A DNA stretch of 64,000 nt from NCBI GenBank assembly GCA_964019135.1, contig OZ025257.1, forward strand, positions 24,350,352-24,414,351, in the 5' to 3' direction. Position 1 is the stretch's first letter. Every line of letters begins with the position of its first letter. The translations under genes and the position numbers were made by a program. Positions 15,294-64,000 of this stretch are shown piece by piece. Below the pieces are notes generated by a model, which worked only from the letters and a program-made list of their open reading frames with translations, had not been told where the DNA came from and made no database searches. This DNA comes from Arenicola marina (Eukaryota; Annelida; Polychaeta; Arenicolidae).

Positions 15294-15324
<31 letters not shown>

Positions 15325-15821: not shown

Positions 15822-15859
15822 CTGATCCCTCAGGATAGATATGTTCCTTTATGTAGCTA

Positions 15860-16080
15860 ATCAGGGGCGGATCTAGGAGGGGTGTTTAGGGGGGTTGCAC
15901 CCCCCCCCCCGCCCCCCTTTGAACATTTTTGAAGTCCCTTTTCCTTAATCGTGAGTATAAAATTGACAATCATAGATGATGGTGGGTACAAGTGAGAAAT
16001 ACTCATCTCTGAAACTGACAAGAAAGTGTCATGCTGCTTTGTTTGTCCGACTTGTTTGTCCGACATGACGCACGTACGCG
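15860..16080. mobile_element. DNA-transposon end and associated repeat (L)
   Basis: It begins with caggggcggatctaggaggg, which resembles the CAGGGGCGGATC ends I associate with hAT-type elements of marine animals (from memory, not searched). The adjoining repeat through tgctgctttgtttgtccgac recurs at 29675-29815. The other terminus was not found. Confidence 0.5.
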
Positions 16081-16597
16081 TGGAAAGGCTTTTCTCACCA
16101 CATGATTTTTTTTCCATATTTACTTCTAAATGACTGCTACATGGAAATGATATGCAACTAGTCAAAACCCTAACCTTGTAGGTATGGGTTTTGATGTCAA
16201 AGCTACCTTAGCAGATGCTGATTCGCAGGGTCTCTCATTTTAGGCGGGTTGCGCTATAGGGAAGGGGAGGGGGGGGCGTGTCATACTATGGGCTGTAGCA
16301 ATAAAATATCGCACGTAGCCTATGTTCTGCTTGTTGTTTAAATAAATTTGGATACTTGCTGTATAATTTCCTATCGCCCACATAGCCAAACATGGGTACC
16401 GATTTTTTTCTGGCATGGGGTTGAAAATGTGGGGTTTTCCATTACTTATCATGGAGATGGTTTCTATTGGTGTGTAACCTAAACGCAAAAGTATTATTCG
16501 TTTATATTTCTGTAAAGTTCAATTATAATTGCAATTGAACGCAATTATTAGGAACCTGAACGACACGAATATACTGTGCAATACTGGTTATTCGGAG

Positions 16598-18540
16598 TTA
16601 TGTAAATGAAGGTGGTTTGTCCAGCCAAATGCCGAAAATTAAATGCATGACGTACCGAAAATCGTACAAAAATAAAAGTGCCAAAGCGCGTAAACAGAGG
16701 TGTATTAGCCTTTTACAAATGCGACTGACATGACAGAGGAAGGCTAAGATCTGCCGTAGTCTAAAATCCTCGAGAAGACACAAGTATGGTTCGCGTATGA
16801 GCAACTTCTTATATCCTTTACAATTCGTCAGGTCTGTCTTACTCTGCCAGTTCTGGCAAGCGCACTCAATTACCCTTTTGGAAAATTGTTCAATTAAGGC
16901 CTCAGGATCTCCAAGTTGTTGCTGAAACCAGGCATAGCCGAATCCATAAGAGAAAAGTAAGTGCTTGAGTTTAGAAACCCAGGTCATACGACCAGCTTCT
17001 GGCAGCCTAAATAACATATTGCAAGTACATTTCGTAAGTCTGGTTTCAGGCACTCTTAACAATTTCAACCAGTATTTAACACAACTAATTGTACACCTTA
17101 CCCTTAAAGGTAATCTACCGCACTCACCATAAACCGCTGAATTTGGTGTACTCCATGGTACGCCCAAGACATATTAAAAAATTTAGTGTCCACACGTTCT
17201 ATACAATCTTTGACATCGTAACCCTAAACTTCTGCACCGTATGTAAGAATGGGTACTATCGTTTTGTCAAAGAGATCAAAATATGTCTCTACCTCCAAAC
17301 CACCACAGTTTTTTGAAATTTCTTCAATAATTTTCACTGTTTTACCCGCTTGGGAGGCGAGAGTTTTTTGAGCCACAGACCACATCAATTTGGAAGAAAA
17401 TATGATACCTAAATATTTATAGTAAGATACAACCTGTAGAGGCTTTCCCTTGTAGTACCATTTTTCATTGCTTCTCAAGGGTTCACCATTTCTAAATACA
17501 ATAATCTTACTTTTATCCACATTGATTTGCAATCCCCATTTGCTACTAAAGTCTTCTAAAACATTTAATAGCTTCTGTAAACGACCCACTGCGTCCGTTC
17601 CATTAACAATATCATCTGCGAACATTAACGGAATTACATTAGGGAAGACCTCATTCACATACACACCCTCACAGCCGGCTTTCTTACATGTATATGCAAG
17701 TTCATTTAAATACATATTAAAGAGAAAGGGACTCAATATACACCCTTGCCGCGTACCAATATTGTTGGTAAACGAGTCGGTAAGACCCTTAGAGGTTTGC
17801 ACGCAGGACTGCAGTTTGGTATCCATTGATTGTAATACTTTCATTAAATCACCATGCACTCCCTCACTATATAGTCTGAACCATAGTTGCTTGTGTGGAA
17901 CCCTGTCGAAAGCTTTCGAAAAATCAATAAATGCGCAGTAGAATCTTCCCCTTGCTTTTGACAAGTACTTTTGAATCATAGCCTGTAGTGTAAAAATGTG
18001 ATCTACTGTACTCCTCCCCCTCCTAAAGCCAGCTTGTTCCTCAAGAAACTTGTCAGTCTTCTGCCCATGTAACACACCTTTCATTTACAACTTTGGTGAA
18101 TAATTTAGCCAAGTTGGGTAATAGTGAAATACCCCTGTAATTATTCACACTATTTATAGCACCTGCTTTATGTAACGGAGATATCATGGCTTCACACCAA
18201 CAAGCAGGGTAATACCTATATTGGTAGCATGACAGACTTAATTCCTTAATCATCTCATTCACAATACCATCAATACCAGGTGCCTTTTGAATGGGCAGGC
18301 CATTTATGGCTCTACTGACTTCATCATGAGTAATAATCTCATTGAGTATAACTGGCTCATTAGCTTGGCATTTCTCACAATAAGAATCATGACCAGCTAA
18401 CGTCGCGTCTACATTTCCTTGTGCATCAGTATCTATATCTGGGTTCCCTCCAAGTAAATTATTAAAGTATGTCTTCAACATTGTGTGTTCCTGTTTTATA
18501 CAATAAATGAACTAGCAAATGAACATTTTAATCATTCAAT
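16598..18540 (-). pseudogene. LINE, 5'-truncated with frameshift (L)
   Basis: Non-LTR retrotransposon remnant on the minus strand in three open segments: 18053-18481, 17224-18084 and 16598-17167. The second segment shows reverse transcriptase motifs in order: GFRRGRSTVDHI, AFIDFSKAFDRVPH, GTRQGCILSPFLFNMY, the catalytic FADD box and GLQINVDKSK, ending PILTYGAEV. The third is the Cys/Trp-rich C-terminal region usual for this LINE type in marine invertebrates. The reading frame shifts by one base at about 18065, and another break separates the RT from the C-terminus. No endonuclease domain lies upstream, so the copy is dead. Copy R carries the same lesions, so they predate the duplication. Confidence 0.9.
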
Positions 18541-18779
18541 TCTTGTTTTCATATTTCACGTTTTAGTAAGAGTCGAGTGTCGTTTGTTATTCGCCTCAGT
18601 CACTGACAGTCATCAGAACTGTTTGGAATTCAAGTGACTCAATCAAGAGCTTAAAATTGTGTTAAATACTAAGTTATGCAACATTTTTCTGGGTAACTAC
18701 ATTATTCTTTTAGTGACTGCACAACACTTTACAAAGTTAAACAATGTATGCATGCCAGGACACAACACCAGTGCTGAGA

Positions 18780-19200
18780 TGGTCAAAATACGACCGTGAC
18801 ATTATTAAATGTCAAGACGTCAAAAAACGACCGTTACAAGAACATGTCTTTATATCTCAAAAAAATGTTGTTTGGTTGTGCACCACATTTAGCCAACGCA
18901 GCATTTGTTGTGATATCTTTTCATTTATGCCTGAACGCAGAAAACAACACGAGCAAAGAAAAAAAAGATATGAGTGATGTTTGACCGTCACGACCGTTAC
19001 ATACATGATAGTCTGAATTATTGGTTATTGCATTACCTTCTGCGCTCTGTAAATGTTACATTTCGATAGAGGACCAAACAATGCAAGTAAATCATGGGAA
19101 GTTACTTGAAAAAGTGTTTTCTAAAGTAAATTTGCGGTCATTGTTCATGTCAAAAGTTACGACCGTTACAATTTTTGACATCACGACCGTTACGTTATGA
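18780..19200. repeat. Recurrent cgaccgttac motif cluster (L)
   Basis: The motif acgaccgt(t/g)ac occurs five times in about 420 bases (near 18791, 18828, 18990, 19157 and 19187), all on the plus strand and often next to gacgtca or gacatca. It may be the subterminal zone of an unknown element; no termini were recognised. Confidence 0.5.
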
Positions 19201-19554
19201 AGCTGTTTTTCAACAAACTAGTAAATTTACTATATTTTATCCTTAATAATATAAGAAAAGATACATTTACCCACTATACTCCGGCAAAATTAACCGTTGG
19301 TTTGGCATTTTAAAAGTCAGGGTCCATGTGACACTTTTTGCAATAGGCCGTGGATACACTCATCTTAGAACCCACGAAATGTATTATTGTAGCAATGGCA
19401 AGCTTGAGTCATACGTGATCTAAGCTGAAACAATGGTTCGCCCTGACATGGAAGAACGTCGGACCATGCAGCCACAAGTCAGTTTAGTTCATCTTCAGAT
19501 TGCAAGAATAAAGTCGTGTTTCGCATCAAGGCGCGTAGGCTAATTCGCATGGAT

Positions 19555-20112
19555 TATGTGTCCTTATACAGACGATAATGGTCATTTAAATGTGGAATAG
19601 GATACAATGGTTCACATTATTGGATACTGAAAGGATATGATACGCAGCGATGTTGCCATGGTGTTTGACACAAGTCATTTAAATGTGGAATAGGATACAA
19701 TGGTTCACATTATTAGATACTGAAAGGATATGATACGCAGCGATGTTGCCATGGTGTTTGACACAAGTTATGTGTCCTTATACAGACGATAATGGTCATT
19801 TAAATGTGGAATAGGATACAATGGTTTACATTATTGGATACTGAAAGGATATGACATGTATGATACGCAGCGATGTTGCCATGGTGTTTGTCACAAGTCA
19901 TTTAAATGTGGAATAGGATACAATGGTTCACATTATTGGATAATGAAAGAATATGATACGCAGCGATGCTGCCATGGTGTTTGACACAAGTTATGTGTCC
20001 TTATACAGACGATAATGGTCATTTAAATGTGGAATAGGATACAATGGTTCACATTATTGGATACTGAAAGGATATGATACGCAGCGATGTTGTTATGGTG
20101 TTTGACACAAGT
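19555..20112. repeat. Tandem repeat, about 95-120 bp units (L)
   Basis: Five to six units share tcatttaaatgtggaatagg, cacattattggatactgaaa and gatacgcagcgatgttgcc. Some units add a 25-bp spacer with tatgtgtccttatacagacg. The last unit runs directly into the dispersed repeat at 20115, and a single unit-like remnant precedes the other member at 13672. Confidence 0.92.
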
Positions 20113-20114
20113 CA

Positions 20115-20572
20115 CATCCAGTGCGTTGTTGATGGATAGGATATGAATTGCAAACGAGTTTCGTGGGATTCACGAGAAAGAAAAATGATTTCTAGTGTGA
20201 TTATAGGATATAAGGAAATGTCGGTATGTATTTTACATATGAATTACATATGATCTCAAATTCAGTTTTTCAAGTGGATATTCTGATCTATGCTTGTTTT
20301 GAGGAGAAATTTGTATCTGCTTTTGCTGGGGCTTTCCGTCGGGCGTCAAGTTTCCAGTTCATCATCCATTGTGGTTGTGACCTATTTCAGACAAGCTCAC
20401 TTATTGCTCATGATTGGCATTGATTGCGATGGTCGATTTCGTAACAGAAGGACGATTGTTCAACAGAAAAATTGTTTGGTCTCCTTGAGTCAATCGCAAT
20501 TTATCAGCTCGCTAAAACAGTACATTCGTGAAAAATAATGTACAGTTTAGACAATAGAATGACGTCATAGCA
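20115..20572. repeat. Dispersed 445-bp repeat, member 2 (L)
   Basis: Same orientation as 13672-14115, with clear but diverged similarity along the whole length. It ends at a tgacgtcata motif, as member 1 does. Confidence 0.85.
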
Positions 20573-20582
20573 GTACTTTAAG

Positions 20583-20690
20583 CGTAAGTTAATGTCCGAA
20601 GAACGCGACATTACCGGATAATAATGGTTATCCGTGTTATCCATTGTTATCCGGTAATGTTGTTTTCCGAGGTCATTAACTTATGTAATT
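20583..20690. mobile_element. Small hairpin MITE (L)
   Basis: An inverted repeat pairs gttaatgtcc, acattaccggataa with ttatccggtaatgt, ggtcattaac. The outer taagttaatg / cattaactta extends the stem. The length of about 100 bp and absence of coding capacity fit a MITE. Confidence 0.7.
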
Positions 20691-21079
20691 AACTTATGTA
20701 AAATCCTTCTGACTCAAACCCACTACATTACAGACAAATAATGTCGTGAGAGAACAATAGAGTGACGTCATCAGTGTATTTTACATGTGCCGGTTTATAG
20801 GCCCGGTTTATCCCGGTTCTGAAAACCGGGTACAATAACCGTAGACAACCCTGGGCAATCGTAGCCGTAGTCGATCCGGGGTGTACTGTGGTGAACCGTA
20901 GGTCGCCCCCGGACAATGCAGCCGAACGTAAGATTATTTTCTTCTTTTACTGCAGATGCATATTTCCTACCATTTGGCACAAGAAAATGGCAGCTCTAGC
21001 GTGTTTTCTGATTTGTGACGATTTTTGTACAAAATGGCCACAATTTCCGTTGGAGGACCAGCAAAGGGGCCGAAGCAAC

Positions 21080-21205
21080 CCAGGGCCCAAACCCTGGGCC
21101 CAAACCCTGGGCCCAAACCCTGGGCCCAAACCCTGGGCCCAAACCCTGGGCCCAAACCCTGGGCCCAAACCCTGGGCCCAAACCCTGGTCCCAAACCCTG
21201 GGCCC
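21080..21205. repeat. 13-bp satellite (aaaccctgggccc)n (L)
   Basis: Nine to ten perfect 13-bp units, with one c-to-t variant (tggtccc) near the end. Copy R has fewer units (62551-62640). Open frames here on both strands are artefacts of the period. Confidence 0.97.
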
Positions 21206-21846
21206 CCTGGCGGGGTGGGGGGGTACGGTAATCCAAGGGGGTACTTGATCATGGCCATGCTATTTGCTCTATGACATGCTGTCTCCGCTGCTCCCCCACA
21301 CGCCCTTTACCACATATATGGATAGTTTCACCCATGCCAAGCCAAGCAGACAATGGATTGGTCATGGCTATTTTCAGCCTATGACAAAGTGTCCCTTAAT
21401 CCACATGGCCCGATAATCCCATGCTAAGCTAAGGGACACTTGGTCACGACTATTCTGTCTTTACAATCTGCCGCCCTACACTCCCCCGTCACCAATAGGG
21501 ATCGCTTCACCCTTGCTGACCTTGCTTCAGCCTATGACAATGCCCCCCCCCACCCCCAACAAGTGACTTTCCCCGCGTACTGCAGGGGGGGGGGGGTCAC
21601 TATAATAATAATATTTTTTTACCATAAAGAGTACACAAATCGAAATAATACAAAACTTGTTGGCAAGGAGCTAAAGCCGAGGCTTATTCGCTCAAAGAAA
21701 AAAAACAAAAAACAGCACAAACGGAACAGGGAACAGTACTACAACAATCTAGATAGTATATGTATTTGGCCAAATCGTTGCGCTATAATAGTTCTTTCGA
21801 TGAACAAATTAACAGATAGGATTATATGGAGATGGCTAGTTACACA

Positions 21847-22201
21847 TCACAGGTAACAATCACTCGTATCGATTATATTTAACAAACTATCCTTAGTATT
21901 TCTCTTAAAAAGTTGAAGCGATGATTGAAAGTTTACCTTACCAAACCATTTATTAAATATGTATATCCCATTATATCTCATATATATTTTCTTGCATTGA
22001 CATTTATGTTTAGGATTCTTGTAAGATAAGAAGCTGCAATCCATTGTATTGCTTATATATAAATAATAACACGCTAATCTCGTATAATGATGTGAGCGGT
22101 GAGCGGTAGAATCTTATATTCATTACGAATAACGGTGCTGAATGGGCCCATTTATTAACTCCGGACAATATGCGAACTGCTTTTTTTTTAAATCTTATCA
22201 A
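21847..22201 (-). pseudogene. LINE C-terminal relic (L)
   Basis: The minus-strand frame starts RFKKKAVRILSGVNKWAHSAPLF, resembling the final domain of many LINE reverse transcriptase proteins (KK..RI....AHTAPLF). In copy L an extra gtgagcg repeat near 22100 breaks the frame; copy R is open over 115 codons. No RT core is adjacent. Confidence 0.6.
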
Positions 22202-22377
22202 ATCAGATGGTGTATTAGCTTGGGTTAAAAAGCTAATACACCAGGCTCCCCATACTTCAATACAATATATTAGATATGGAGATCTGGGTTTAAAAACGAT
22301 GAATTTAGAAACGATAAACGAAAGTGTAAGCAGGTGGCACGAACGAAATTGCGAAAAAGAACTGAAGCTTTCATTCC

Positions 22378-22383
22378 TTTATT
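22378..22383 (-). terminator. Polyadenylation signal of A1
   Basis: AATAAA on the minus strand, 20 bases beyond the TGA, implying a very short 3' UTR. It is conserved in A2 and A3. Confidence 0.8.
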
Positions 22384-22403
22384 GCGATTATATTGCAACA
22401 AAT

Positions 22404-25400
22404 TCAACCAAAGTAATTGTAGACCTCAACGCCAGTTCCGAGTACCGTCAAAAGCAGAGAGACCCATTTGCCCTGAGGAACCATCACATCGGGCATCTTA
22501 TTCCCCGTCAGGAGGTCAACGAGTGCCTTGAGGACAGCCTCGCTCTCAGCCGGGGTCAGTTTAAGGTCACCCAACGCCACAGCAGTGCTGGAAAGAAGCG
22601 GCATACGGAAGGATTAAAGTAGTGAGCAGGCAGGCATCCTAGAGCAATTACATAACCTTTGTAGCTATTTATAGCGTTATGCAAATGCCTAGCAAGTCAC
22701 GGGCTGGATACTAACGTCTCTAGGATCAGCTTCGCCACCTCCGCAGTCTTTCCCTCCGATACCATCTTCTCAACTGAAAGAGAAGTATTAACAGTCATAA
22801 ATAACCAAGTGCCAGTGGAATACGGAAGGCAATTTAGGTTGGGGGCCCTCGGGACCCTTAGTAATTGACCAACGACCACAGTAGAACTGTCCTTACCAAA
22901 AGCCGCCAGTCGACCGTCCATGATGACCTCCTCTAAGACCTTGTTGATGGCCGCCATGTGCAACAGCTCATCGGCATCCTCTTCTGCAACAAAACACCAG
23001 GGTCAGTGAAAGTGGCTCAAGGGTCAGTGAAAGTGGCTCAAGGGTCAGTGAAAGTGGCTCAAGGGTCAGTGAAAGTGGCTCAAGGGTCAGTGAAAGTGGC
23101 TCAAGGGTCAGTGAAAGTGGCTCAAGGGTCAGTGAAAGTGGCTCAAGGGTCAGTGAAAGTGGCTCAAGGGTCAGTGAAAGTGGCTCAAGGGTCAGTGAAA
23201 GTGGCTCAAGGGTCAGTGAAAGTGGCTCAAGGGTCAGTGAAAGTGGCTCAAGGGTCAGTGAAAGTGGCTCAATGGCTCAAGGGTCAGTGAAAGTGGCTCA
23301 ATGGCTCAAGGGTCAGTGAAAGTGGCTCAATGGCTCAAGGGTCAGTGAAAGTGGCTCAATGGCTCAAGGGTCAGTGAAAGTGGCTCAATGGCTCAAGGGT
23401 CAGTGAAAGTGGCTCAATGGCTCAAGGGTCAGTGAAAGTGGCTCAATGGCTCAAGGGTCAGTGAAAGTGGCTCAATGGCTCAAGGGTCAGTGAAAGTGGC
23501 TCAATGGCTCAAGGGTCAGTGAAAGTGGCTCAAGGGTCAGTGAAAGTGGCTCAAGGGTCAGTGAAAGTGGCTCAAGGGTCAGTGAAAGTGGCTCAAGGGT
23601 CAGTGAAAGTGGCTCAAGGGTCAGTGAAAGTGGCTCAAGGGTCAGTGAAGGTGGCTCAAGGGTCAGTGAAGGTGGCTCAAGGGTCAGTGAAGGTGGCTCA
23701 AGGGTCAGTGAAGGTGGCTCAAGGGTCAGTGAAGGTGGCTCAATGGCTCAAGGGTCAGTGAAGGTGGCTCAATGGCTCAAGGGTCAGTGAAGGTGGCTCA
23801 ATGGCTCAAGGGTCAGTGAAGGTGGCTCAATGGCTCAGTGAAGGTGGCTCAATGGCTCAAGGGTCAGTGAAGGTGGCTCAATGGCTCAAGGGTCAGTGAA
23901 GGTGGCTCAATGGCCCAAGGGTCAGTGAAGGTGGCTCAATGGCCCAAGGGTCAGTGAAGGTGGCTCAATGGCCCAAGGGTCAGTAAAGGTGGCTCAATGG
24001 CCCAAGGGTCAGTAAAGGTGGCTCAATGGCCCAAGGGTCAGTAAAGGTGGCTCAATGGCCCAAGGGTCAGTAAAGGTGGCTCAATGGCCCAAGGGTCAGT
24101 AAAGGTGGCTCAATGGCCCAAGGGTCAGTAAAGGTGGCTCAATGGCCCAAGGGTCAGTAAAGGTGGCTCAATGACCCAAGGGTCAGTAAAGGTGGCTCAA
24201 TGACCCAAGGGTCAGTAAAGGTGGCTCAATGACCCAAGGGTCAGTAAAGGTGGCTCAATGACCCAAGGGTCAGTGAAGGTGGCTCAATGACCCAAGGGTC
24301 AGTGAAGGTGGCTCAATGACCCAAGGGTCAGTGAAGGTGGCTCAATGACCCAAGGGTCAGTGAAGGTGGCTCAATGACCCAAGGGTCAGTGAAGGTGGCT
24401 CAATGACCCAAGGGTCAGTGAAGGTGGCTCAATGACCCAAGGGTCAGTAAAGGTGGCTCAATGACCCAAGGGTCAGTAAAGGTGGCTCAATGACCCAAGG
24501 GTCAGTAAAGGTGGCTCAATGACCCAAGGGTCAGTAAAGGTGGCTCAATGACCCAAGGGTCAGTAAAGGTGGCTCAATGACCCAAGGGTCAGTAAAGGTG
24601 GCTCAATGACCCAAGGGTCAGTGAAGGTGGCTCAATGACCCAAGGGTCAGTGAAGGTGGCTCAATGACCCAAGGGTCAGTGAAGGTGGCTCAATGACCCA
24701 AGGGTCAGTGAAGGTGGCTCAATGACCCAAGGGTCAGTGAAGGTGGCTCAATGACCCAAGGGTCAGTGAAGGTGGCTCAATGACCCAAGGGTCAGTGAAG
24801 GTGGCTCAATGACCCAAGGGTCAGTGAAGGTGGCTCAATGACCCAAGGGTCAGTGAAGGTGGCTCAATGACCCAAGGGTCAGTGAAGGTGGCTCAATGAC
24901 CCAAGGGTCAGTGAAGGTGGCTCAATGACCCAAGGGTCAGTGAAGGTGGCTCAATGACCCAAGGGTCAGTGAAGGTGGCTCAATGACCCAAGGGTCAGTG
25001 AAGGTGGCTCAATGACCCAAGGGTCAGTGAAGGTGGCTCAATGACCCAAGGGTCAGTGAAGGTGGCTCAATGACCCAAGGGTCAGTGAAGGTGGCTCAAT
25101 GACCCAAGGGTCAGTGAAGGTGGCTCAATGACCCAAGGGTCAGTGAAGGTGGCTCAATGACCCAAGGGTCAGTGAAGGTGGCTCAATGACCCAAGGGTCA
25201 GTGAAGGTGGCTCAATGACCCAAGGGTCAGTGAAGGTGGCTCAATGACCCAAGGGTCAGTGAAGGTGGTTCAATGACCCAAGGGTCAGTGAAGGTGGCTC
25301 AATGACCCAAGGGTCAGTGAAGGTGGCTCAATGACCCAAGGGTCAGTGAAGGTGGCTCAATGACCCAAGGGTCAGTGAAGGTGGCTCAATGACCCAAGGG

Positions 25401-27741
25401 TCAGTGAAGGTGGCTCAATGACCCAAGGGTCAGTGAAGGTGGCTCAATGACCCAAGGGTCAGTGAAGGCGGCTCAATGACCCAAGGGTCAGTGAAGGCGG
25501 CTCAATGACCCAAGGGTCAGTGAAGGCGGCTCAATGACCCAAGGGTCAGTGAAGGTGGCTCAATGACCCAAGGGTCAGTGAAGGTGGCTCAATGACCCAA
25601 GGGTCAGTGAAGGTGGCTCAATGACCCAAGGGTCAGTGAAGGTGGCTCAATGACCCAAGGGTCAGTGAAGGTGGCTCAATGACCCAAGGGTCAGTGAAGG
25701 TGGCTCAATGACCCAAGGGTCAGTGAAGGTGGCTCAATGACCCAAGGGTCAGTGAAGGTGGCTCAATGACCCAAGGGTCAGTAAAGGTGGCTCAATGACC
25801 CAAGGGTCAGTGAAGGTGGCTCAATGACCCAAGGGTCAGTGAAGGTGGCTCAATGACCCAAGGGTCAGTGAAGGTGGCTCAATGACCCAAGGGTCAGTGA
25901 AGGTGGCTCAATGACCCAAGGGTCAGTGAAGGTGGCTCAATGACCCAAGGGTCAGTAAAGGTGGCTCAAGGCCCCAAGGGTCAGTGAAGGTGGCTCAAGG
26001 CCCCAAGGGTCAGTGAAGGAGGAACAAGGCTGGCTGTAACCAGACGCCAGCCCAAGGCTGGCCAGTCAAAGAGAAGCTGTGGTGGACTGTTTACCATCTG
26101 GTGCACTTACTGAAGAACGAGATGAAGCCAGAGACTAAATCTTCAGACGCCATGGCTTCAGTCAGTCCGATGACGATCTCAGCCACCTCAGGAAGGCCCT
26201 TCATCAACTTCCGCGTCACCATAACCTTGATGGGGGCCGGCAAGGTCAAGCTCTGCACGGACGCTTCAAAGCCACCTTGCAAGAAGTCTACGATGGCCCC
26301 AATTCCGGCTTCAATCTGTGGGAGGGCGGCCGACAAGTTGCAAGTGATCCGTCCTGTGGCGAATGGAGCCATGTACTTGTGGATGGAGATGGCCACCATC
26401 TGGAAGAGCTCGCCTACTGGTCTGTCCAGGAAGAATTCCTGGCTTATTAAAGCCTGAATTTCATCAAAGAGGCCATCCATCGGGATATCTCCTGGGGAAG
26501 GACAAAACTGCATTCAGGCTTGTATTCATCGTATAAAACAGGAATGCACGACACAAATATTTGACCAGAAGTAGAACTAATTTCAAAGATTTAGGTCACC
26601 TTGGCATATTAAAGTGATGGTTACCAGATAGTTAGAAGGGGGGCGGGGGGTTCTCACCGATGGCAGATTCGAATACCATTACTTTCTCTTGTAGTGCTGC
26701 AGAGATGAAGTCCACCACCTCCTTCATGTGGGCCGCCACGTCCACCATGGACTGCTTCTTGCCCATCCCACCACCATGACCTCCCTTTCGACGCGCAATC
26801 ATCTCTTCCACGGATTCAATGGATTCCATCGACTCCCCGCTAGCCTTGCCAGGCTTCAGATGGTGCAGATGGTCGATTTCACCAATCTCCTTCCCGGCCA
26901 GCAGCATATCCTCCACCACCAGGTTCCGCACCAGATGTTCCACAAAGCCTGGAAGCATAAGGAAGGAATTGTTCATTGCAAGGGTACCAGTGGAATAACG
27001 AATGGAATAAACAAGAATTCATGTCAATTGCTGGAGAGTGAAGCCCACTTACCGATGACGGCATGCACTGCCACCGCTTGTCCGCATTCTGCAGGCACCA
27101 TCTTTTCAGTCACGGTGGCGGCAATGATTTCAAATGCTTTCCAAGTCTTTACCGGATCCACAGCCGTGATAGGCATAGTGTAGTCTACCCCGACGGCATC
27201 CAGCTTATCCGCTAATGCAACTGCCACTACACGGAACAAACAACGTACACCATCTGCAAAAGCTATAAATGTGAATCCATTCGGCTAACGCCTCGTGCAT
27301 GCTGAACAACAAAATCAACTGTGGAACGTTTTCTCTAAGTTGAAAAGGATCACGATCTTTGAACCTTCCAGATTTGGAAAACCACCAAACGAGTTAATTT
27401 ACTTTCAAAACACTTGATTCGAATAGAACTCTCAAAAGACAAAAGTCACGCGTCATTTATAGTGAATATAGGGTTTGGCTTGCTCAATAACAGCTTCATA
27501 CTCACGGTCGTTGCCCACTGGGGCCAGCAGAGCGACCAGCTCAGAGTTAGTGCGGCGGAAAAGGCGGATCCGTCCACCTAAGACGAAAGGTCATGAAGCC
27601 CAATTAAGCATAAAAATCCCCAAACTCTCAAGCAAACTAAGCAAATCAGAACGATAAAGTGTGTGGATTTACCCAATCAGTTGCGTGCTTACCATGAACG
27701 ACGGCGGCCATACAGATCATGGAGAGCAGAAACAGCTTCAT
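22404..27741 (-). CDS. Gene A1, secreted protein, 8 exons
   Basis: Family not recognised. Exons on the minus strand: 27693-27741, 27506-27577, 27053-27226, 26658-26948, 26111-26491, 22897-22983, 22716-22773, 22404-22587; 1296 nt, 431 residues plus TGA. All borders are GT-AG. Introns 1-6 are phase 1 and intron 7 (donor gttagt) is phase 2. The start MKLFLLSMICMAAVVHG is a signal peptide, so the protein is probably secreted. The mature chain is mostly helical and hydrophobic, with two Cys (88 and 246), one N-glycosylation sequon (NLS, 247) and a polar linker at about 127-163 with a dibasic RRK (151-153) and GGHGGGMGKK. Intron 5 is a 3-kb minisatellite. A TATA box lies 85 bases upstream of the start codon and AATAAA 20 bases past the stop. 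Confidence 0.92.
23000..26019. repeat. Minisatellite in intron 5 of A1 (21/29-bp units)
   Basis: About 3.02 kb of head-to-tail units. It starts with 21-bp units (gggtcagtgaaagtggctca + a), then 29-bp units that add tggctcaa, a second 21-bp block, then 29-bp units that change stepwise to gaagg, tggcccaa, gtaaagg and finally tgacccaa. A three-unit gaaggcggc variant sits near 25465-25525. The last two units have ccccaagg. The zoned variants point to local block amplification. The array separates exon 5 from exon 6. Confidence 0.97.
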
Positions 27742-27890
27742 GATGACGTCAGGAGGTCTGAAGAGACTGGAAGAGGACAATCGACGGGTCACAGGGACTG
27801 AGTGATGACAGGTGGAGACGGACCCCTTTTATAGCCCCCTGTTGTGAGCTGTCTCAGAGAGGAGTGGCGTCTGGTTGAAGCTCATTGGAT
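27742..27890 (-). promoter_or_regulatory. Promoter and 5' UTR of A1
   Basis: On the minus strand a TATAAAA box (27826-27832) lies 85 bases upstream of the ATG, and CCAAT (27884-27888) lies about 52 bases further up. A transcription start near 27800 is inferred. A perfect TGACGTCA palindrome (27744-27751) ends two bases before the start codon. The upstream sequence to about 27950 is conserved at A2 and then stops at the TTAA insertion. Confidence 0.75.
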
Positions 27891-28116
27891 GAAACATGCT
27901 CAGAGGAGTGGTTGGATGCCGAGACGTATGGAAAGCCATAACGTGTCAATTCTTAAAGGTCATCTCTTAAATCTTAACTCGCTTTCCACCGTAAAATCAG
28001 AGTGTTGCAGCCTGTCAGTCTATGCTAAAGAAAGAAAAGAAAATAATAAATAATGATCTTGACTAAATTTGCCACAAAACCCTTGTGATTCCGAAAAATC
28101 TGATGTGAACTTGTGA

Positions 28117-29445
28117 CGTCACAGAAGGCACCCGAGGCGCGGATCATTAGATGACCGGGGCAGGGCCCTACCATTATTACCCGAGGCACGGATCATTAGA
28201 TGACCGGGGCAGGGCCCTACCATTATTACGCGAAGCACGGATCATTAGATTGCAGGGCCCTACCATTATTACCCGAGGCACGGATCATTAGATTGCAGGG
28301 CCCTACCATTATTACCCGAGGCACGGATCATTAGATAACCGGGGCAGGGATTATTAGATGACCGGGCCATGGCCCTACCATTATTACCAGGGGCACGGAT
28401 CATTAGATGACCGGGGCAGGGCCCTACCATTATTACGCGAAGCACGGATCATTAGATTGCAGGGCCCTACCATTATTACCCGAGGCACGGATCATTAGAT
28501 TGCAGGGCCCTACCATTATTACCCGAGGCACGGATCATTAGATAACCGGGGCAGGGATTATTAGATGACCGGGCCATGGCCCTACCATTATTACCAGGGG
28601 CACGGATCATTAGATGACCGGGGCAGGGCTCTACCATTATTACCAGGGGCAAGGATCATTAGATGACCGGGGCAGAGCACTACCATTATTACCCGAGGCA
28701 CGGATCATTAGATGCCCGGGCCATGGCCCTACCATTATTACCCGAGGCAAGGATCATTAGATGACCGGGGCAGGGCCCTACCATGATTACCCGAGGCACG
28801 GATCATTAGATGACCGGGGCAGGGCCCTACCATTATTACCCGAGGCACGGATAATTAGATTGCAGGGCCCTACCATTATTACCCGAGGCACGGATCATTA
28901 GATGACCGGGGCAGGGATCATTAGATGACCGGGGCAGGGCCCTACCATTATTACCAGGGGCACGGATCATTAGATGACCGGGGCAGGGCCTTACCATTAT
29001 TACCAGAGGCACGAATTATTAGATGACCGGGGCAGGGCCATACCATTATTACCCGAGGCACGGATCATTCGATGACCCGGGCAGGGCCCTACCATTATTA
29101 CCAGGGGCACGGATCATTGGATGACCGGGGCAGGGCCCTACCATTATTACCCGAGGCACGGATGATTAGATGACCGGGGCAGGGCCCCACCATTATTACC
29201 AGGGGCACGGATCATTGGATGACCGGGGCAGGGCCCTACTATTATTACCCGAGGCACGGATCATTAGATGACCGGGGCAGGGCCCTACCATTATTACATG
29301 AGGCACGATTCATTAGATGACCGGGGCAGGGCACTACCATTATTATCCGAGGTACGGATCATTAGATGAACAGGGCAGGGCCCTACCATTATTACCCGAG
29401 GCACGGATCATTAGATGACCGGGGCGGAGCACTACCATTATTACT
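28117..29445. repeat. 49-bp minisatellite inside the TTAA element
   Basis: About 27 units built from ggcacggatcattagatgac, cggggcagggccctacc and attattaccc. Shortened variants (attgcagggccc) recur in a higher-order pattern: 28240-28395 and 28440-28610 are near copies of each other. Absent from the A2 flank. Confidence 0.95.
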
Positions 29446-29674
29446 CACACGTCGTAAACTATCACGACGTCTCCTGCTGTTGTAAATGCCATGCCTGAAT
29501 AATACATGAGTTAAGAAATGAAACAATAGGGTGGCGTAGAATAACGACCACACTGTGTGGACGACGAAAGCCGGATCCAGTTAAGTAATTAGTGAGTTGT
29601 GAGAAACAATGCTGATTTCCGGGGAGATCGACAATAGATCTATTGCCCGACACTAAGCCTTGCCCATGCTTGAG

Positions 29675-29815
29675 TCCTTTTTCCTTACTCATGAGTATGA
29701 AACTGACGATTATCATAACTGATGGTAGGTACAAGTGAGAAGTACTCATCTCTAAAACAACAAAGTGCCATGCTGCTTTGTTTGTCCGACTTGTTTGTCT
29801 GACTTGACGTCATGA
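29675..29815. repeat. Repeat shared with 15930-16075
   Basis: Same orientation; shares gtgagaa(a/g)tactcatctct and tgctgctttgtttgtccgac. It lies within the TTAA element, so it was either carried or nested. Confidence 0.75.
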
Positions 29816-30315
29816 TTGGATAAAGCAACAGTGACGTCAGTGGATTATTGACAGCCAGGATCGGTTTATTTAAAGTATCTTGTGAGCCTGAAACCCTTTG
29901 CCGAAGCCCATACGCCAACCCAATTCCGCTGAAATGTTTCGAATTATTGTTTATTGTGTTTTTATCCGTATTGTCAGAATCGGAATGTGGAAAGGTATGT
30001 AATCAATGTATGGGTGTATGCTGACAAATTATTTTTCATCAAGGGACCCATCAATCTTATTTTCCAAATAATTCACTAGTGAAAGACCTCCGCGGCTCTC
30101 GCTTGGCGCGGAAAACTGGAGAGGAGAACCGCGCGTTTTCCATAGTTTTCTGATCATGCCCACTTTTCGCGATTTAGGATCGCAGTATATAAGAAACTAA
30201 ATTACCTCAAACTTAATAGTCAGTGACAATAAATTCCGTATTTAACATTTAACGATTATTTATGTGTCATTCTGCACTCCCAAGAATTAACGAAATCCCA
30301 AGAGATGGACTTTAA

Positions 30316-31000
30316 ATAACCCTTGTACGATGATGTATGCTAAAATGTTTTCATAAACTGCCAATAATACATTACCGAAATGTAGGTATTTTAGGTTATA
30401 TATTGCCTATCATTCGACAGTCACTCTCTGCTTCGACTCCCCTAGGGGATACAAACGCATGTGCTTTTACATTGAGACTCTCTGCTCATTGGCTTGAACT
30501 CAACCAAAAGCATTCAACCATGAGGACAATACAAGCCCTCGACAACAGATTCCTACGCACTGCATCAAAGCTCACCTGTCAATCTTGTGACATCATTAGG
30601 GAATTTCTAAATACCGCCCAGATGCAAAGCTCCCAGAATTAAACCCGCCGAACCTCACTTTTGCTACTTTTGCTACGAACGTATTTATAGTGATATCGTG
30701 GAATAAAAACTCCCATTAAAACAAATTCATATTTGTTTGTCTTCCCTAAATAAAGTTAACTCTGAGCTAAGCAAAATCGTGGCACGAACACTTTAAATCT
30801 CTACTGTAGTATAGGACGTCAGTTCATAAAATAACACTTATGATCTATTCTTGAAAAGGATTATTTAGCAAGAAATTATATTTGGTTTGACAACTTTTCA
30901 AGAACCTTGAAATTGCCCAGGCTGACAGCAGGGGGAATTCGTGTATATATGCGAGCGAAACGTCGGAGTATGCGGAGCTCATGACCGAAAGAAGTTTGCA
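30316..31000. repeat. 5' flank shared by A1 and A2
   Basis: It resumes the collinear flank of A2: the part near 30330-30470 matches about 37290-37380 and the part near 30790-31000 matches about 37690-37830, with considerable divergence. The tandem duplication that made A1 and A2 therefore extended well upstream of the promoter. The 101-codon frame at 30337-30642 has no recognised domain. Confidence 0.65.
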
Positions 31001-31194
31001 ACTAACGTTGTCACTTAGGCTGAGTTAAGTTAACTTGAGTTGATGATTATGTCACTTAACTGCAGGTGCAGGAAATATATTAATATTGAAAGAAATTAAT
31101 TTGAGAATTGTAAGAAAAAGATAGGAGTTCGATTTGTCGAATTTATAATATTTGGAATTGCATTTTACCCCGCAATGTTTTGCCAAAGGCAATG

Positions 31195-31275
31195 GTGTAA
31201 TGAGGGTTGCCGCCGCCCCTCTCTGTGTAGTGGTTAGAGCGCACTGGAACGTAGATCTATAGGTCCTCGGCTCGA
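31195..31275 (+). mobile_element. tRNA-like SINE head between A1 and A2
   Basis: An A-box-like tagtggttagagcgc is followed 35 bases later by a B-box-like cctcggctcgacacc. A cloverleaf is not convincing, so a tRNA-derived SINE is preferred. Confidence 0.6.
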
Positions 31276-31662
31276 CACCAAGACGAAGGGATATAATCTG
31301 GGGCATGTTTAATCCATGTATCGGTCATCGTCCCCGGGAGATGTTTATCCCAGGTTAAGCTCTTGTGTGCGCAAAAAGCAGACTAAAACACCAATTTGCC
31401 ATCGAATCAAACAAGTGCGACCAACTAACACTGCGATACTTGTAATACATACTCAGTACTACATCGAGAAGTTTCGCTACCTTATAATTTCTCGAGTAAT
31501 ACATCAGTAAATATTTTTTAGATTAATTGTCATCTATGTGTTGTGTCGTGTTGTGTCCACAAAAGTTCAGCCTAATTGTACTGCCAAAAATGTCGTGGTA
31601 GTTTGTAGAACACTTTGGCCAGAAATGATAACTTGGCTCTGAATACTAATTTTCCTTCACTC
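31276..31662. other. Spacer downstream of A2
   Basis: Nothing recognised. Homology with the A1 3' flank starts at about 31663 (22284 at A1). Confidence 0.5.
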
Positions 31663-32056
31663 TGGTTTAAAAACCATAAATTTAGAAACGATAAACGAAA
31701 GTGTAAGCAGGTGGCACGAACGAAATTGCGAAAAAGAACTGAAGCTTTCATTCCTTTATTGCGATTATATTGCAACAAAATCAACCAAAGTAATTGTAGA
31801 CCTCAACGCCAGTTCCGAGTACCGTCAAAAGCAGGGAGACCCATTTGCCCTGAGGAACCATCACATCGGGCACCTTGTTCCCCGTCAAGAGATCAACAAA
31901 TGCCGTGAGGACAGCCTCGCTCTCGGCCGGGGTCAGTTCAAGGTCACCCAACGCTACAGCAGTGCTGGAAAGAAGCGATAGAAGTTGTGAGCAGGCATGC
32001 ATCCTTCCAAGCAGGCAGAGCAATTGCGTTCTTACAGCGAGAAGACTCCAGTGGTG

Positions 32057-32481
32057 AGTTCGGATATGAGAGCTGCCTAATCCGACTCCGCGGAGTGCAT
32101 AACCGAACGGAGATTGTGTTCAGATAGCGCGGTCACGTGGTACATTTTACTCCCGGACCTTACTCCCCACCCAGAGGAGGATCACGAGGATTTCGAACAT
32201 GGCGTCCAGGCCCAACAATACGTAATATAAATGAAGTAATATTTAGACCTGCAAACAAATGTGAATATTATAACTAGAATAAAATAATGAACACAACACG
32301 TATCAGTTTATTTATATCCTACTGTTTACCGATCTTCATGATTTGTGCAGCTCAGCATGTACAACATTCACGCGGACCGCGGATTTTGCGTTCGGTTTAT
32401 TTTGATCCGCACATGAGCGGAAAGTATGAGTGCGTATGCCCCAATTATCTGCGCCGATTACTCCGGTCGCATATCCGAACT
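32057..32481. mobile_element. 425-bp TIR element in intron 7 of A2
   Basis: Ends agttcggatatg and catatccgaact are inverted repeats, and further palindromic tracts lie inside. It accounts for most of the longer intron 7 of A2 (690 against 128 bp). An inner part (cataaccgaac, gagattgtgt, gcggtcacgtgg) also occurs near 37816-37885. No clear target duplication is visible. Confidence 0.7.
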
Positions 32482-32938
32482 AAACCCAGGTCTCCCCCTC
32501 CCCCAAAAGCACACACCATGGGACGTGAAGGACCGGAAAAAATTCAGAGACTCATTCAGGAATATGGATGCGGTGTTTCAGCCCGCCCCCAGGCAGCCCT
32601 CGTAACCATTTTATGGAGAGACGCAAATGCAAAAGACACTGGCTGGATACTAACGTCTTTAGGATCAGCTTCGCCACCTCCGCAGTCTTTCCCTCCGATA
32701 CCATCTTCTCAACTGAAAGAGAAGTATTAACAGTCATAAATAACCAAGTGCCAGTAGAATTCGGAAGGCAATTTAGGTTGGGGGCCCTCGGGACCCTTAG
32801 TAATTGGCCAACGACCACAGTAGAACTGTCCTTACCAAAAGCCGCCAGTCGACCGTCCATGATGACCTCCTCTACGACCTTGTTGATGGCCGCCATGTGC
32901 AACAGCTCATCGGCATCCTCTTCTGCAACAAAACACCA

Positions 32939-35372
32939 GGGTCAGTGAAAGTGGCTCAAGGGTCAGTGAAGGTGGCTCAAGGGCCCAAGGGTCAGTGAAG
33001 GTGGCTCAAGGGCCCAAGGGTCAGTGAAGGTGGCTCAAGGGCCCAAGGGTCAGTGAAGGTGGCTCAAGGGCCCAAGGGTCAGTGAAGGTGGCTCAAGGGC
33101 CCAAGGGTCAGTGAAGGTGGCTCAAGGGCCCAAGGGTCAGTGAAGGTGGCTCAAGGGCCCAAGGGTCAGTGAAGGTGGCTCAAGGGCCCAAGGGTCAGTG
33201 AAGGTGGCTCAAGGGCCCAAGGGTCAGTGAAGGTGGCTCAAGGGCCCAAGGGTCAGTGAAGGTGGCTCAAGGGCCCAAGGGTCAGTGAAGGTGGCTCAAG
33301 GGCCCAAGGGTCAGTGAAGGTGGCTCAAGGGTCAGTGAAGGTGGCTCAAGGGCCCAAGGGTCAGTGAAGGTGGCTCAAGGGTCAGTGAAGGTGGCTCAAG
33401 GGCCCAAGGGTCAGTGAAGGTGGCTCAAGGGCCCAAGGGTCAGTGAAGGTGGCTCAAGGGCCCAAGGGTCAGTGAAGGTGGCTCAAGGGCCCAAGGGTCA
33501 GTGAAGGTGGCTCAAGGGCCCAAGGGTCAGTGAAGGTGGCTCAAGGGCCCAAGGGTCAGTGAAGGTGGCTCAAGGGCCCAAGGGTCAGTGAAGGTGGCTC
33601 AAGGGCCCAAGGGTCAGTGAAGGTGGCTCAAGGGCCCAAGGGTCAGTGAAGGTGGCTCAAGGGCCCAAGGGTCAGTGAAGGTGGCTCAAGGGCCCAAGGG
33701 TCAGTGAAGGTGGCTCAAGGGCCCAAGGGTCAGTGAAGGTGGCCCAAGGGTCAGTGAAGGTGGCCCAAGGGTCAGTGAAGGTGGCTCAAGGGCCCAAGGG
33801 TCAGTGAAGGTGGCTCAAGGGCCCAAGGGTCAGTGAAGGTGGCTCAAGGGCCCAAGGGTCAGTGAAGGTGGCTCAAGGGCCCAAGGGTCAGTGAAGGTGG
33901 CTCAAGGGCCCAAGGGTCAGTGAAGGTGGCTCAAGGGCCCAAGGGTCAGTGAAGGTGGCCCAAGGGCCCAAGGGTCAGTGAAGGTGGCCCAAGGGCCCAA
34001 GGGTCAGTGAAGGTGGCTCAAGGGCCCAAGGGTCAGTGAAGGTGGCTCAAGGGCCCAAGAGTCAGTGAAGGTGGCTCAAGGGCCCAAGAGTCAGTGAAGG
34101 TGGCTCAAGGGCCCAAGAGTCAGTGAAGGTGGCTCAAGGGCCCAAGGGTCAGTGAAGGTGGCTCAAGGGCCCAAGGGTCAGTGAAGGTGGCTCAAGGGCC
34201 CAAGGGTCAGTGAAGGTGGCTCAAGGGCCCAAGGGTCAGTGAAGGTGGCTCAAGGGCCCAAGGGTCAGTGAAGGTGGCTCAAGGGCCCAAGGGTCAGTGA
34301 AGGTGGCTCAAGGGCCCAAGGGTCAGTGAAGGTGGCTCAAGGGCCCAAGGGTCAGTGAAGGTGGCTCAAGGGCCCAAGGGTCAGTGAAGGTGGCTCAAGG
34401 GCCCAAGGGTCAGTGAAGGTGGCTCAAGGGCCCAAGGGTCAGTGAAGGTGGCTCAAGGGCCCAAGGGTCAGTGAAGGTGGCTCAAGGGCCCAAGGGTCAG
34501 TGAAGGTGGCTCAAGGGCCCAAGGGTCAGTGAAGGTGGCTCAAGGGCCCAAGGGTCAGTGAAGGTGGCTCAAGGGCCCAAGGGTCAGTGAAGGTGGCTCA
34601 AGGGCCCAAGGGTCAGTGAAGGTGGCTCAAGGGCCCAAGGGTCAGTGAAGGTGGCTCAAGGGCCCAAGGGTCAGTGAAGGTGGCTCAAGGGCCCAAGGGT
34701 CAGTGAAGGTGGCTCAAGGGCCCAAGGGTCAGTGAAGGTGGCTCAAGGGCCCAAGGGTCAGTGAAGGTGGCTCAAGGGCCCCAAGGGGCAGTGAAGGTGG
34801 CTCAAGGGCCCCAAGGGGCAGTGAAGGTGGCTCAAGGGCCCCAAGGGGCAGTGAAGGTGGCTCAAGGGCCCCAAGGGGCAGTGAAGGTGGCTCAAGGCCC
34901 CCAAGGGGCAGTGAAGGTGGCTCAAGGCCCCCAAGGGGCAGTGAAGGTGGCTCAAGGCCCCAAGGGGCAGTGAAGGTGGCTCAAGGCCCCAAGGGGCAGT
35001 GAAGGTGGCTCAAGGCCCCAAGGGGCAGTGAAGGTGGCTCAAGGCCCCAAGGGGCAGTGAAGGTGGCTCAAGGCCCCAAGGGGCAGTGAAGGTGGCTCAA
35101 GGCCCCAAGGGTCAGTGAAGGTGGCTCAAGGCCCCAAGGGTCAGTGAAGGTGGCTCAAGGCCCCAAGGGTCAGTGAAGGTGGCTCAAGGCCCCAAGGGTC
35201 AGTGAAGGTGGCTCAAGGCCCCAAGGGTCAGTGAAGGTGGCTCAAGGCCCCAAGGGTCAGTGAAGGTGGCTCAAGGCCCCAAGGGTCAGTGAAGGTGGCT
35301 CAAGGCCCCAAGGGTCAGTGAAGGTGGCTCAAGGCCCCAAGGGTCAGTGAAGGTGGCTCAAGGGTCAGGGAA
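32939..35372. repeat. Minisatellite in intron 5 of A2 (29-bp units)
   Basis: About 2.43 kb, mostly 29-bp units that end in gggcccaa rather than the tgacccaa of A1. A block near 34760-35100 changes to ggggcagtgaagg with ccccaag spacers, then to 27-28-bp units with gccccaagggtcag up to the end. Both ends match the ends of the A1 array. Confidence 0.97.
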
Positions 35373-37059
35373 GGAGGAACAAGGCTGGCTGTAACCAGAC
35401 GCCAACCCAAGGCTGGCCAGTCAAAGAGAAGCTGTGGTGGACGGTTTACCATCTGGTGCACTTACTGAAGAACGAGATGAAGCCAGAGACTAAATCTTCA
35501 GACGCCATGGCTTCAGTCAGTCCGATGACGACCTCAGCCACCTCAGGAAGGCCCTTCATCAACTTCCGCGTCACCATAACCTTGATGGGGGCCGGCAAGG
35601 TCAAGCTCTGCAAGGACGCTTCAAAGCCACCTTCCAAGAAGTCTACGATGGCCCCAATTCCGGCTTCAATCTGTGGGAGGGCGGCCGACAAGTCGCAAGT
35701 GATCCGTCCTGTGGCGAATGGAGCCATGTACTTGTGGATGGAGATGGCCACCATCTGGAAGAGCTCGCCTACTGGTCTCTCCAGGAAGAGTTCCTGGCTT
35801 ATTAAAGCCTGAATTTCATCAAAGAGGCCATCCATCGGGATATCTCCTGGGGAAGGACAAAACTGCATTCAGGCTTGTATTCATCGTATAAAACAGGAAT
35901 GCACGACACAAATATTTGACCAGAAGTAGAACTAATTTCAAAGATTTAGGTCACCTTGGCATATTAAAGTGATGGTTACCAGATAGTTAGAAGGGGGGCG
36001 GGGGGTTCTCACCGATGGCAGATTCGAATACCATTACTTTCTCCTGCAGTGCTGCAGAGATGAAGTCCACCACCTCCTTCATGTGGGCCGCCACGTCCAC
36101 CATGGACGGCTTCTTGCCCATCCCACCACCATGACCTCCCTTGCGACGCGCAATCATCTCTTCCACGGATTCAATGGATTCCATCGACTCCCCGCTAGCC
36201 TTGCCAGGCTTCAGATGGTGCAGATGGTCGATTTCACCAATCTCCTTCCCGGCCAGCAGCATATCCTCCACCACCAGGTTCCGCACCAGATGTTCCACAA
36301 AGCCTGGAAGCAGAAGGAAGGAATTGCCCATTGCACGGCTACCAGTGGAATAACGAATGGAATAAACTAGAATTCATGTCAGTTGCTGGAGAAAGAAGCT
36401 CACTTACCGATGACGGCATGCACTGCAACCGCTTGTCCGCAGGCACCATCTTTTCAGCCACGGTGGCGGCAATGATTTCAAATGCTTTCCAAGTCTTTAC
36501 CGGATCCACAGCAGTCATAGGCATCGTGTAGTCTACCCCGACGGCATCCAGCTTATCCGCCAATGCAACTGCCACTATAAAAACATGTAACGTTATCTTC
36601 GCAAGCTATCAATGGTATAGACGGAGAATATACGAGAATATATTTAGAGGGAGTTATCTTACTTAAAGATGCCACGGTCTTCGAACAGTCATTATTAGAA
36701 GCACCAACGGAAGTTATTCAACTGGCTAACTGTATATTCGTAAATAAAAATAAATAAATGTTTGGCTTTCTCAATAACAGCTTCATGCTCACGGTCGTTG
36801 CCCACCGGGGCCAGCAGAGTGACCAGCTCAGAGTTGGTGCGGCGGAAAAGGCGGATGCGTCCACCTAAGACGAAAGGTCATGAACCCCACATTAAGCATA
36901 AACATCCACTAAAGCACAAATTTTGTCTTCCATCAATATATATGTATATAAAAAAAAACTAAGCTAATCACAAAGATAAATTGCATAGATTTACTCAACC
37001 CATTGCTTACCATGAACGACGGCGGCCATGCAGATCAGAGTTAGAAGAAACAGCTTCAT

Positions 37060-37270
37060 GGTGACGTCGGGAGGTCTGAAGAGACTGGAAGAGGACGATC
37101 GATGGTCACAGGGGCTGAGTGATGACAGGTGGAGACGGACCCCTTTTATAGCCCCCTGTTGTGAGTTGTCTCAGAGAGGAGTGGCGTCTGGTTGAAGCTC
37201 ATTGGATGAAGCATGCCCAGAGGAGTGGTGGGTACCCAGGTACCGAGAGGTATGGAAAGCCATGACGTGT
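37060..37270 (-). promoter_or_regulatory. Promoter of A2
   Basis: The same layout as A1: TATAAAA (37144-37150), CCAAT (37201-37205) and a CRE-like site next to the ATG that has one mismatch (cgacgtca). Similarity to A1 stays high to about 37270. Confidence 0.7.
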
Positions 37271-61580: not shown

Positions 61581-61582
61581 CA

Positions 61583-62040: not shown

Positions 62041-62050
62041 GTACTTTAAG

Positions 62051-62158
62051 CGTAAGTTAATGTCCGAAGAACGCGACATTACCGGATAATAATGGTTATC
62101 CGTGTTATCCATTGTTATCCGGTAATGTTGTTTTCCGAGGTCATTAACTTATGTAATT
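62051..62158. mobile_element. Small hairpin MITE (R)
   Basis: Counterpart of 20583-20690 with an unchanged stem. Confidence 0.7.
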
Positions 62159-63826: not shown

Positions 63827-64000
63827 TCAACCAAAGTAATTGTAGACCTCAACGCCAGTTCCGAGTACCGTCAAAAGCAGAGAGACCCATTTGCCCTGAG
63901 GAACCATCACATCGGGCATCTTATTCCCCGTCAGGAGGTCAACGAGTGCCTTGAGGACAGCCTCGCTCTCAGCCGGGGTCAGTTCAAGGTCACCCAACGC
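63827..64000 (-). CDS. Gene A3, last exon (partial)
   Basis: Terminal exon of a third member of the secreted-protein family, cut by the window edge; by comparison it should end at 64010. It matches exon 8 of A1, with TGA at 63827-63829 and the AATAAA 20 bases further on. Whether the rest is intact cannot be seen. Confidence 0.85.
   Translation of the reverse strand, partial: ALGDLELTPAESEAVLKALVDLLTGNKMPDVMVPQGKWVSLLLTVLGTGVEVYNYFG

Follow-up and report, generated by a model that had tools for sequence, protein, structure and literature searches.

The stretch of DNA analysed here, called the window below, comprises 64,000 nucleotides of the annelid Arenicola marina (NCBI GenBank assembly GCA_964019135.1, contig OZ025257.1, positions 24,350,352 to 24,414,351 of the forward strand). 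It carries two copies (A1 and A2) and the last exon of a third copy (A3) of a gene with a predicted secreted product. An earlier note, made from the letters of the window alone, had described the copies as an unrecognised tandem family of 431-residue proteins and had suggested a product made in quantity. Its observation is partly confirmed, and its interpretation is partly supported. What is new here is that in three related loci, on the contig designated C1, a Gly-rich repeat stands in place of the linker encoded by exon 4.

Organization of the Genes in the Window

Gene A1 lies on the minus strand at 22404-27741. Its eight exons (Table 1), spliced in silico, gave an open frame of 431 residues with 0 internal stops, and all seven introns (7/7) had GT-AG borders. 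The phases are 1,1,1,1,1,1,2, that is, six phase-1 introns and one phase-2 intron, much as the earlier note had described. Splicing also confirmed the signal peptide, which is called by eye, and the two cysteines of the mature part. In the protein, the signal peptide is followed by an N domain encoded by exons 2, 3, and the early part of exon 4, a linker of variable length, and a C domain encoded from late exon 4 through exon 8. Cys10 is inside the signal peptide, and Cys88 and Cys246 belong to the mature part; each end domain has one conserved cysteine. The Gly/His/Lys linker, already pointed out in the note, measures about 30–35 residues in A1 when delimited by eye. It proved to be the key spot of the family, where the C1 paralogs hold the Gly-rich repeat (about 1,660 residues at the locus C1:68.59).

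The N and C halves of the protein were rejected as products of an internal duplication (best hhalign E 0.009, over 25 columns only). Coding retention of intron 5 was ruled out by a TAA a few codons beyond the exon-5 donor. The length of this intron varies between 143 and 3127 bp across the copies measured. In A1 and A2, it holds minisatellites whose units contain the branch-point-like word CTGAC (110 CTGAC in A1 intron 5) and resemble the intron's own 3' end.

Gene A2 (31781-37059, minus strand) has all 8 exons and their splice sites. Its exon 3 is shorter than the 174 nt of A1 by a 7-bp deletion, which causes a frameshift and takes out the codons surrounding Cys88. Because of this deletion, A2 as assembled encodes no 431-residue protein, although it had been counted among the copies that define one. 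The last exon of A3 was correctly recognised, and the whole A3 gene, taken from the genome beyond the window, is open and encodes 431 residues. The 13.6-kb stretch 8954-22577 is duplicated at 50454-64000 with 98% identity and a spacing of about 41.5 kb. This duplicate is the visible part of a tandem unit with A1 and A2 and represents recent growth of the array.

A Multigene Family Under Constraint

A protein search of the 867-Mb genome with A1 gave 131 exon matches, which were grouped by hand into at least 43 family loci on five large contigs; such counts are lower bounds. The C10 cluster (24.29-24.67 Mb) has 17 loci, and four more lie on C10 at 23.35-23.47 Mb; C6 has 14, C20 three, C12 one, and C1 four. 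The tandem copy gain proposed in the earlier note is thus upheld. The exon plan of the family is 49 / about 72 / 174 / variable / 381 / 87 / 58 nt. It is matched by the C10 copies, and in the C6 copies exons 1, 3, 5, 6, and 7 fit it, while the length of exon 2 is not fixed. In the C20 members (L040 and L059), exons 3 and 4 form one 474-nt exon, through either loss or non-gain of an intron. Exon lengths are kept between subfamilies that are about 50% identical.

Thirteen of the 15 C10 copies for which exon 5 was fetched are open over exons 1-5, the exceptions being A2 and L018; several distant family copies are also broken. The ratio of nonsynonymous to synonymous substitution rates (dN/dS) over exons 1-5 of C10 is 0.18, with a mean dS of 0.084 and a mean dN of 0.0149 (78 pairs; 14 names representing 13 distinct sequences, with A2/L013 and L018 dropped). 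It is 0.31 between A1 and C20, 0.28-0.29 between A1 and three C6 genes, and 0.28-0.53 across all ten comparisons of A1, C20, and the three C6 genes. The family is under constraint, with no sign of diversifying selection. The exon matches, the conserved exon lengths, and the dN/dS well below 1 place the A1-type family beyond chance. A functionless, decayed repeat array spread by segmental duplication would fit the 98% repeat and the broken copies, but it is highly improbable. The open C10 frames and the dN/dS values speak against it, and the exon plan and the start-site element described below are kept at dS of about 1 and more.

The same figures bear on a possible defensive role. A1 has a high helical moment (0.52) at residues 289-306, and the C6 proteins L054 and L044 have a strongly hydrophobic C-terminal tail, with 19-residue hydropathy means of up to 2.03 and 1.83, respectively. 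This tail could be a membrane or glycosylphosphatidylinositol (GPI)-type signal. Secreted, membrane-active defence proteins might act through such amphipathic helices, and the C6 tail might act on or anchor to membranes. We consider this quite improbable. The dN/dS values, both within C10 and elsewhere, show no sign of an arms race; the C20 protein L040 ends without a hydrophobic tail, and Pfam offered no family match.

Gly-Rich Paralogs on Contig C1

Three C1 loci, at 49.08, 68.59, and 68.607 Mb, have a long Gly-rich repeat that replaces the short exon-4 linker of A1. Their exon 5 is homologous to that of A1, with E values in the genome search of 1.1e-21 (C1:68.59), 9.7e-19 (C1:68.607), and 1.9e-13 (C1:49.08). 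The locus C1:68.59 is on the minus strand and has an exon 1 of 49 nt (MKTLLLTLVTIFSVCS), an exon 2 of 66 nt, an exon 3 of 174 nt, and an exon 5 of 381 nt; the junctions of exons 1, 3, 4, and 5 have canonical splice sites. Its exon 4 is 5,289 nt long, or 1,764 codons counting split codons, and is free of stops. The core of 1,664 residues contains 934 Gly (56%), 237 Ala, 156 Ile, 140 Val, and 120 Ser, and its repeat period is ten residues. Within the fetched locus, exon 3 is 38% identical to that of A1 over the aligned part (E 2e-9), and the start of exon 4 resembles the start of A1 exon 4 (42% over 31 residues, E 8e-4). Both proteins have SIES ahead of the glycines when compared by eye, which may be chance.

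Mismatches between the core repeats of C1:68.59 fall at the third codon position in 54,346 of 115,685 cases (47%), compared with 6,584 of 17,695 (37%) in the non-coding intron-5 minisatellite of A1 read in an arbitrary frame. The excess is supportive at most, because the compared repeat pairs overlap. Only with a shifted donor and acceptor at exons 6/7 and a weakly aligned exon 2 does C1:68.59 give a single open frame, of 2,109 residues, that ends in EKWWPFNVIAGLFEPRPLLGR. The locus C1:68.607 stands head-to-head with it and has exons of 49, 66, 174, 382 (stop and deletion), 87, and 58 nt. At C1:49.08, the repeats are like (GGSSGIGGSSGSG)n, and exons 1 and 2 were not found within the fetched stretch. 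A1 and A2 are regarded as coreless members, because the linker is short in the C10, C20, and C6 copies that were read.

Promoter and Start-Site Element

The TATA box CTATAAAA at -92/-93 and a CCAAT box at -146/-147 are present in all 14 C10 copies whose start was modelled, and the TATA/CCAAT promoter proposed earlier holds well beyond the window. One C20 gene has a similar pair. At C1:68.59, neither a TATA nor a CCAAT consensus occurs within 500 nt of the start, where there is only the TATA-like CATAAATAG. The promoter and the many near-identical copies might also suggest bulk-produced storage proteins of the egg, yolk, or coelom. Such a function seems rather improbable, as Pfam shows no known storage domain, and the long Gly-rich core would be odd in a storage protein.

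A further element is located at the start codon. A palindrome resembling the cAMP response element (CRE), TGACGTCA, lies close ahead of the start codon of A1. Four genes from four subfamilies (A1, one of C20, one of C6, and the C1:68.59 gene) share the same ten bases, TGACGTCATC, immediately before the ATG, and ungapped comparison of the 30 bases further upstream gives only 4 to 13 matching positions of 30. The pattern TGACGTCAT-ATG with a secretory-type start was matched 22 times in the genome (7 C10, 9 C6, 3 C20, and 3 C1). Every one of the 22 falls at a family locus, assigned by gene model for 14 and by position and strand for 8. With the pattern reversed as a control there were 0 matches, and a narrower pattern gave 20, all within the 22. 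Both Gly-rich loci at C1:68.6 keep the element. Some observations caution against reading too much into it. The palindrome TGACGTCA occurs 30 times in the window, compared with 0.65 expected from shuffles, and the sites (e.g., at 4256-4451 and 44969-45185) are partly in tandem repeats and partly dispersed. It is missing at -10 in 4 of the 14 C10 copies, A2 included, and 21 of the 43 loci are absent from the 22 matches.

Searches for Known Domains and Folds

The view that the family is unrecognised was upheld by the Pfam, NCBIfam, and PDB searches, which gave no relative. Pfam returned 0 matches up to E 10 for A1, C6, and the C1 end domains, and for C20 only TerB (E 0.31). NCBIfam gave only weak matches far under the cut-off. 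TerB, an epimerase (0.14), and a V-ATPase subunit (0.085) were rejected as noise. Among the PDB sequences, nothing was found for A1, and a five-row family profile retrieved only two OGT chains (E 2.3). Viral and prokaryote collections gave pattern matches only, with no relative confirmed, and Rfam gave 0 families at gathering score within the window. Modelled singly with AlphaFold, exon 5 and exon 4 each came out entirely helical but at low confidence (mean predicted local distance difference test, pLDDT, of 57.9 and 63.9), which lends weak support to the helical mature protein that had been proposed. A Foldseek search with the low-confidence exon-5 model gave no fold match (best E 0.74).

Structural Proteins or Soluble Carriers

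Our preferred reading, which we hold tentatively, is that this is an annelid family of secreted, silk-like structural proteins whose window copies are coreless members. The end domains would be helical and would drive storage and assembly, and fibres or gels would be formed by the Gly-rich members. Dosage may explain why the coreless members were amplified. They could make up a separate material, or they could join the Gly-rich chain in assembly through the homologous end domains. The same secretory cells would produce all members, governed by the common start-site element, and the candidate materials are a tube, a mucus thread, and an egg coat. The suggestion of a secretion made in quantity gains indirect support from the silk-like C1 paralogs.

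Several points weigh against this reading. Under the strict exon plan, 0 of the 3 Gly-rich C1 loci are free of defects. At C1:68.59, the usual exon-6 donor lacks GT; at C1:68.607, a stop interrupts exon 5 and the frame of exon 4 changes twice; and at C1:49.08, the frame of exon 5 is broken. Because all three carry defects, the silk-like branch may be dying or may have died recently, although at C1:68.59 an open exon of 5.3 kb speaks against prolonged decay. Exon 4 was read at 26 of the 43 loci, and 23 of these are coreless (15 C10, 4 C6, 2 C20, C12, and C1:30.5), against three with a Gly-rich core. The end domains match no recognised fold, as judged from the single-exon AlphaFold models and Foldseek. 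Finally, the grand average of hydropathy (GRAVY) of A1 is +0.36, which is hydrophobic for a secreted soluble protein and would fit a carrier as well.

The latter possibility deserves separate attention. The coreless proteins could be soluble and carry lipids or other hydrophobic ligands in the body fluid, the gut, or the mucus, having been amplified for dose, and the Gly-rich C1 genes could be a later, perhaps decaying, derivative with another role. GRAVY is +0.36 also for C20 and reaches +0.64 for C6; mature A1 and C20 contain 0 windows of 19 residues above a hydropathy of 1.6, and the isoelectric point is about 4.9. Purifying selection without diversification, the predominance of coreless loci, and the defects of every Gly-rich copy are also compatible with carriers. 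On the other hand, no carrier family was matched in Pfam up to E 10 or among the PDB sequences, the silk-like paralogs retain both end domains, and the two at C1:68.6 retain the start-site element. Taken together, carriers appear unlikely, though they are the main competitor.

The structural reading can be carried further. The family could be an independent annelid silk with a spidroin layout, in which giant Gly-rich cores are accompanied by dozens of coreless paralogs and a CREB/ATF-type palindrome at the start codon serves as the switch. As companion subunits, the coreless paralogs would then cap or store the Gly-rich core chain, or co-assemble with it by way of the homologous end domains. 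This bolder version is conceivable but doubtful.

Other Features of the Window and Genome

The coordinates of the gene features are given in Table 1. A 49-bp tandem repeat with 43-bp and 207-bp arrangements is located upstream of A1 at 28130-29444, and about ten copies of AACCCTGGGCCCA occur at 21077-21205 (97% matching). The duplicated unit contains reverse transcriptase open reading frames (ORFs) at 17224-18084 and 58692-59552, both on the minus strand and with identical translation; the former, the one of the pair that was scanned, matches RVT_1 (E 6e-29). Two Pro/Ala/Ser-rich ORFs on the minus strand, 10245-10847 and 51740-52312, are probably low-complexity DNA; a Pfam scan of the first gave no match. 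Elsewhere in the genome, the mitochondrial contig has the order nad3-nad2-cox1-cox2-atp8-cox3, which is the annelid mitochondrial order, and giant extracellular haemoglobin chains are encoded that are closest to vestimentiferan ones; both fit an annelid host.

Table 1. Positions in the window of the A1, A2, and A3 gene features and associated elements.
Feature	Position	Strand	Remarks
A1 exon 1	27693..27741	-	49 nt, signal peptide MKLFLLSMICMAAVVH
A1 exon 2	27506..27577	-	72 nt, RRTN motif
A1 exon 3	27053..27226	-	174 nt, N domain with Cys88
A1 exon 4	26658..26948	-	291 nt, end of N domain, short Gly/His/Lys linker, start of C domain
A1 exon 5	26111..26491	-	381 nt, C domain with Cys246
A1 exon 6	22897..22983	-	87 nt
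A1 exon 7	22716..22773	-	58 nt
A1 exon 8	22404..22587	-	184 nt, with stop codon
A1 intron-5 minisatellite, 21/29-bp	22999..26019		
CRE-like palindrome TGACGTCA	27744..27751	-	close ahead of A1 start codon
A1 TATA box CTATAAAA	27827..27834	-	-93
A1 CCAAT box	27884..27888	-	-147
A2 exon 1	37011..37059	-	
A2 exon 2	36793..36864	-	
A2 exon 3	36408..36574	-	167 nt, 7-bp deletion, frameshift
A2 exon 4	36013..36303	-	
A2 exon 5	35466..35846	-	
A2 exon 6	32836..32922	-	
A2 exon 7	32655..32712	-	
A2 exon 8	31781..31964	-	stop codon triplet included
A2 intron-5 minisatellite, 29-bp	32953..35364		
A2 TATA box	37144..37151	-	-92
A3 exon 8	63830..64000	-	cut off at window end

Comparison with Known Systems

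The layout of C1:68.59 is like that of spidroins in having a signal peptide and, on either side of a repetitive Gly-rich core, N and C domains that are not repetitive. A repetitive Gly/Ala-rich core between non-repetitive ends is found in C1:68.59, in a gene with one non-GT donor, and is absent from A1. Spidroin end domains are helical and Met-rich and are present in the PDB. In contrast, the end domains of this family have no Pfam or PDB sequence match, and no spidroin N- or C-terminal domain was recognised by Pfam in A1, C6, C20, and the C1 ends or by the profile search of the PDB. The eight-exon gene, the annelid host, and the fact that most members read are coreless also distinguish the family from spidroins.

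The fibroin light chain and P25 are small secreted partners of the giant repetitive insect silk chain, and by analogy they could be a role model for A1 as a companion subunit. Unlike them, the family has no Pfam match, and A1, the proposed partner, is a paralog of the giant chain itself. Helical secreted proteins of the Bla g 1 type are defined by the Pfam insect-allergen repeat; membership of the family among these insect allergen-related proteins was rejected, as Pfam gave no match to that repeat up to E 10.

Within the annelids, the closest class by description is that of the silk-like structural proteins (SLSPs), the study of which is reportedly that of McDougall et al. 2016. According to the accessible part of the source, SLSPs are secreted, low-complexity proteins, and uncharacterised ones occur in annelids (PMC4944945). 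C1:68.59 is likewise predicted to be secreted, of low complexity, and silk-like, with a signal peptide (MKTLLLTLVTIFSVCS start, judged by eye) and a counted Gly content of 56% in the core, and A1 lacks the Gly-rich low complexity. As far as that part of the source goes, the SLSP class is set by sequence character rather than homology, whereas the present family has homologous end domains and a coreless multigene branch. The tube matrix of Alvinella pompejana is described, in the portion of the paper available, as rich in Ser, Gly, and Ala and is likened to silk fibroin; a candidate tube protein was chosen by composition and modelled as a beta sheet (PMC12403961). That genome measures 367 Mb, compared with 867 Mb here, and the two systems were compared by description, not by sequence. 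The accessible text of a paper on the chitinous tube of a tubeworm does not mention silk (PMC8476170). Searches of the open-access literature for silk showed no annelid silk gene with defined end domains among the matches listed, and more general searches listed nothing on this family; this supports its novelty only weakly.

Tube and thread building occurs in many annelids, and the family provides a concrete gene set for tube, mucus, and egg-coat proteomes. With its end domains, its coreless branch, and its start-site signature, it may offer an independent case for understanding the function of silk end domains.

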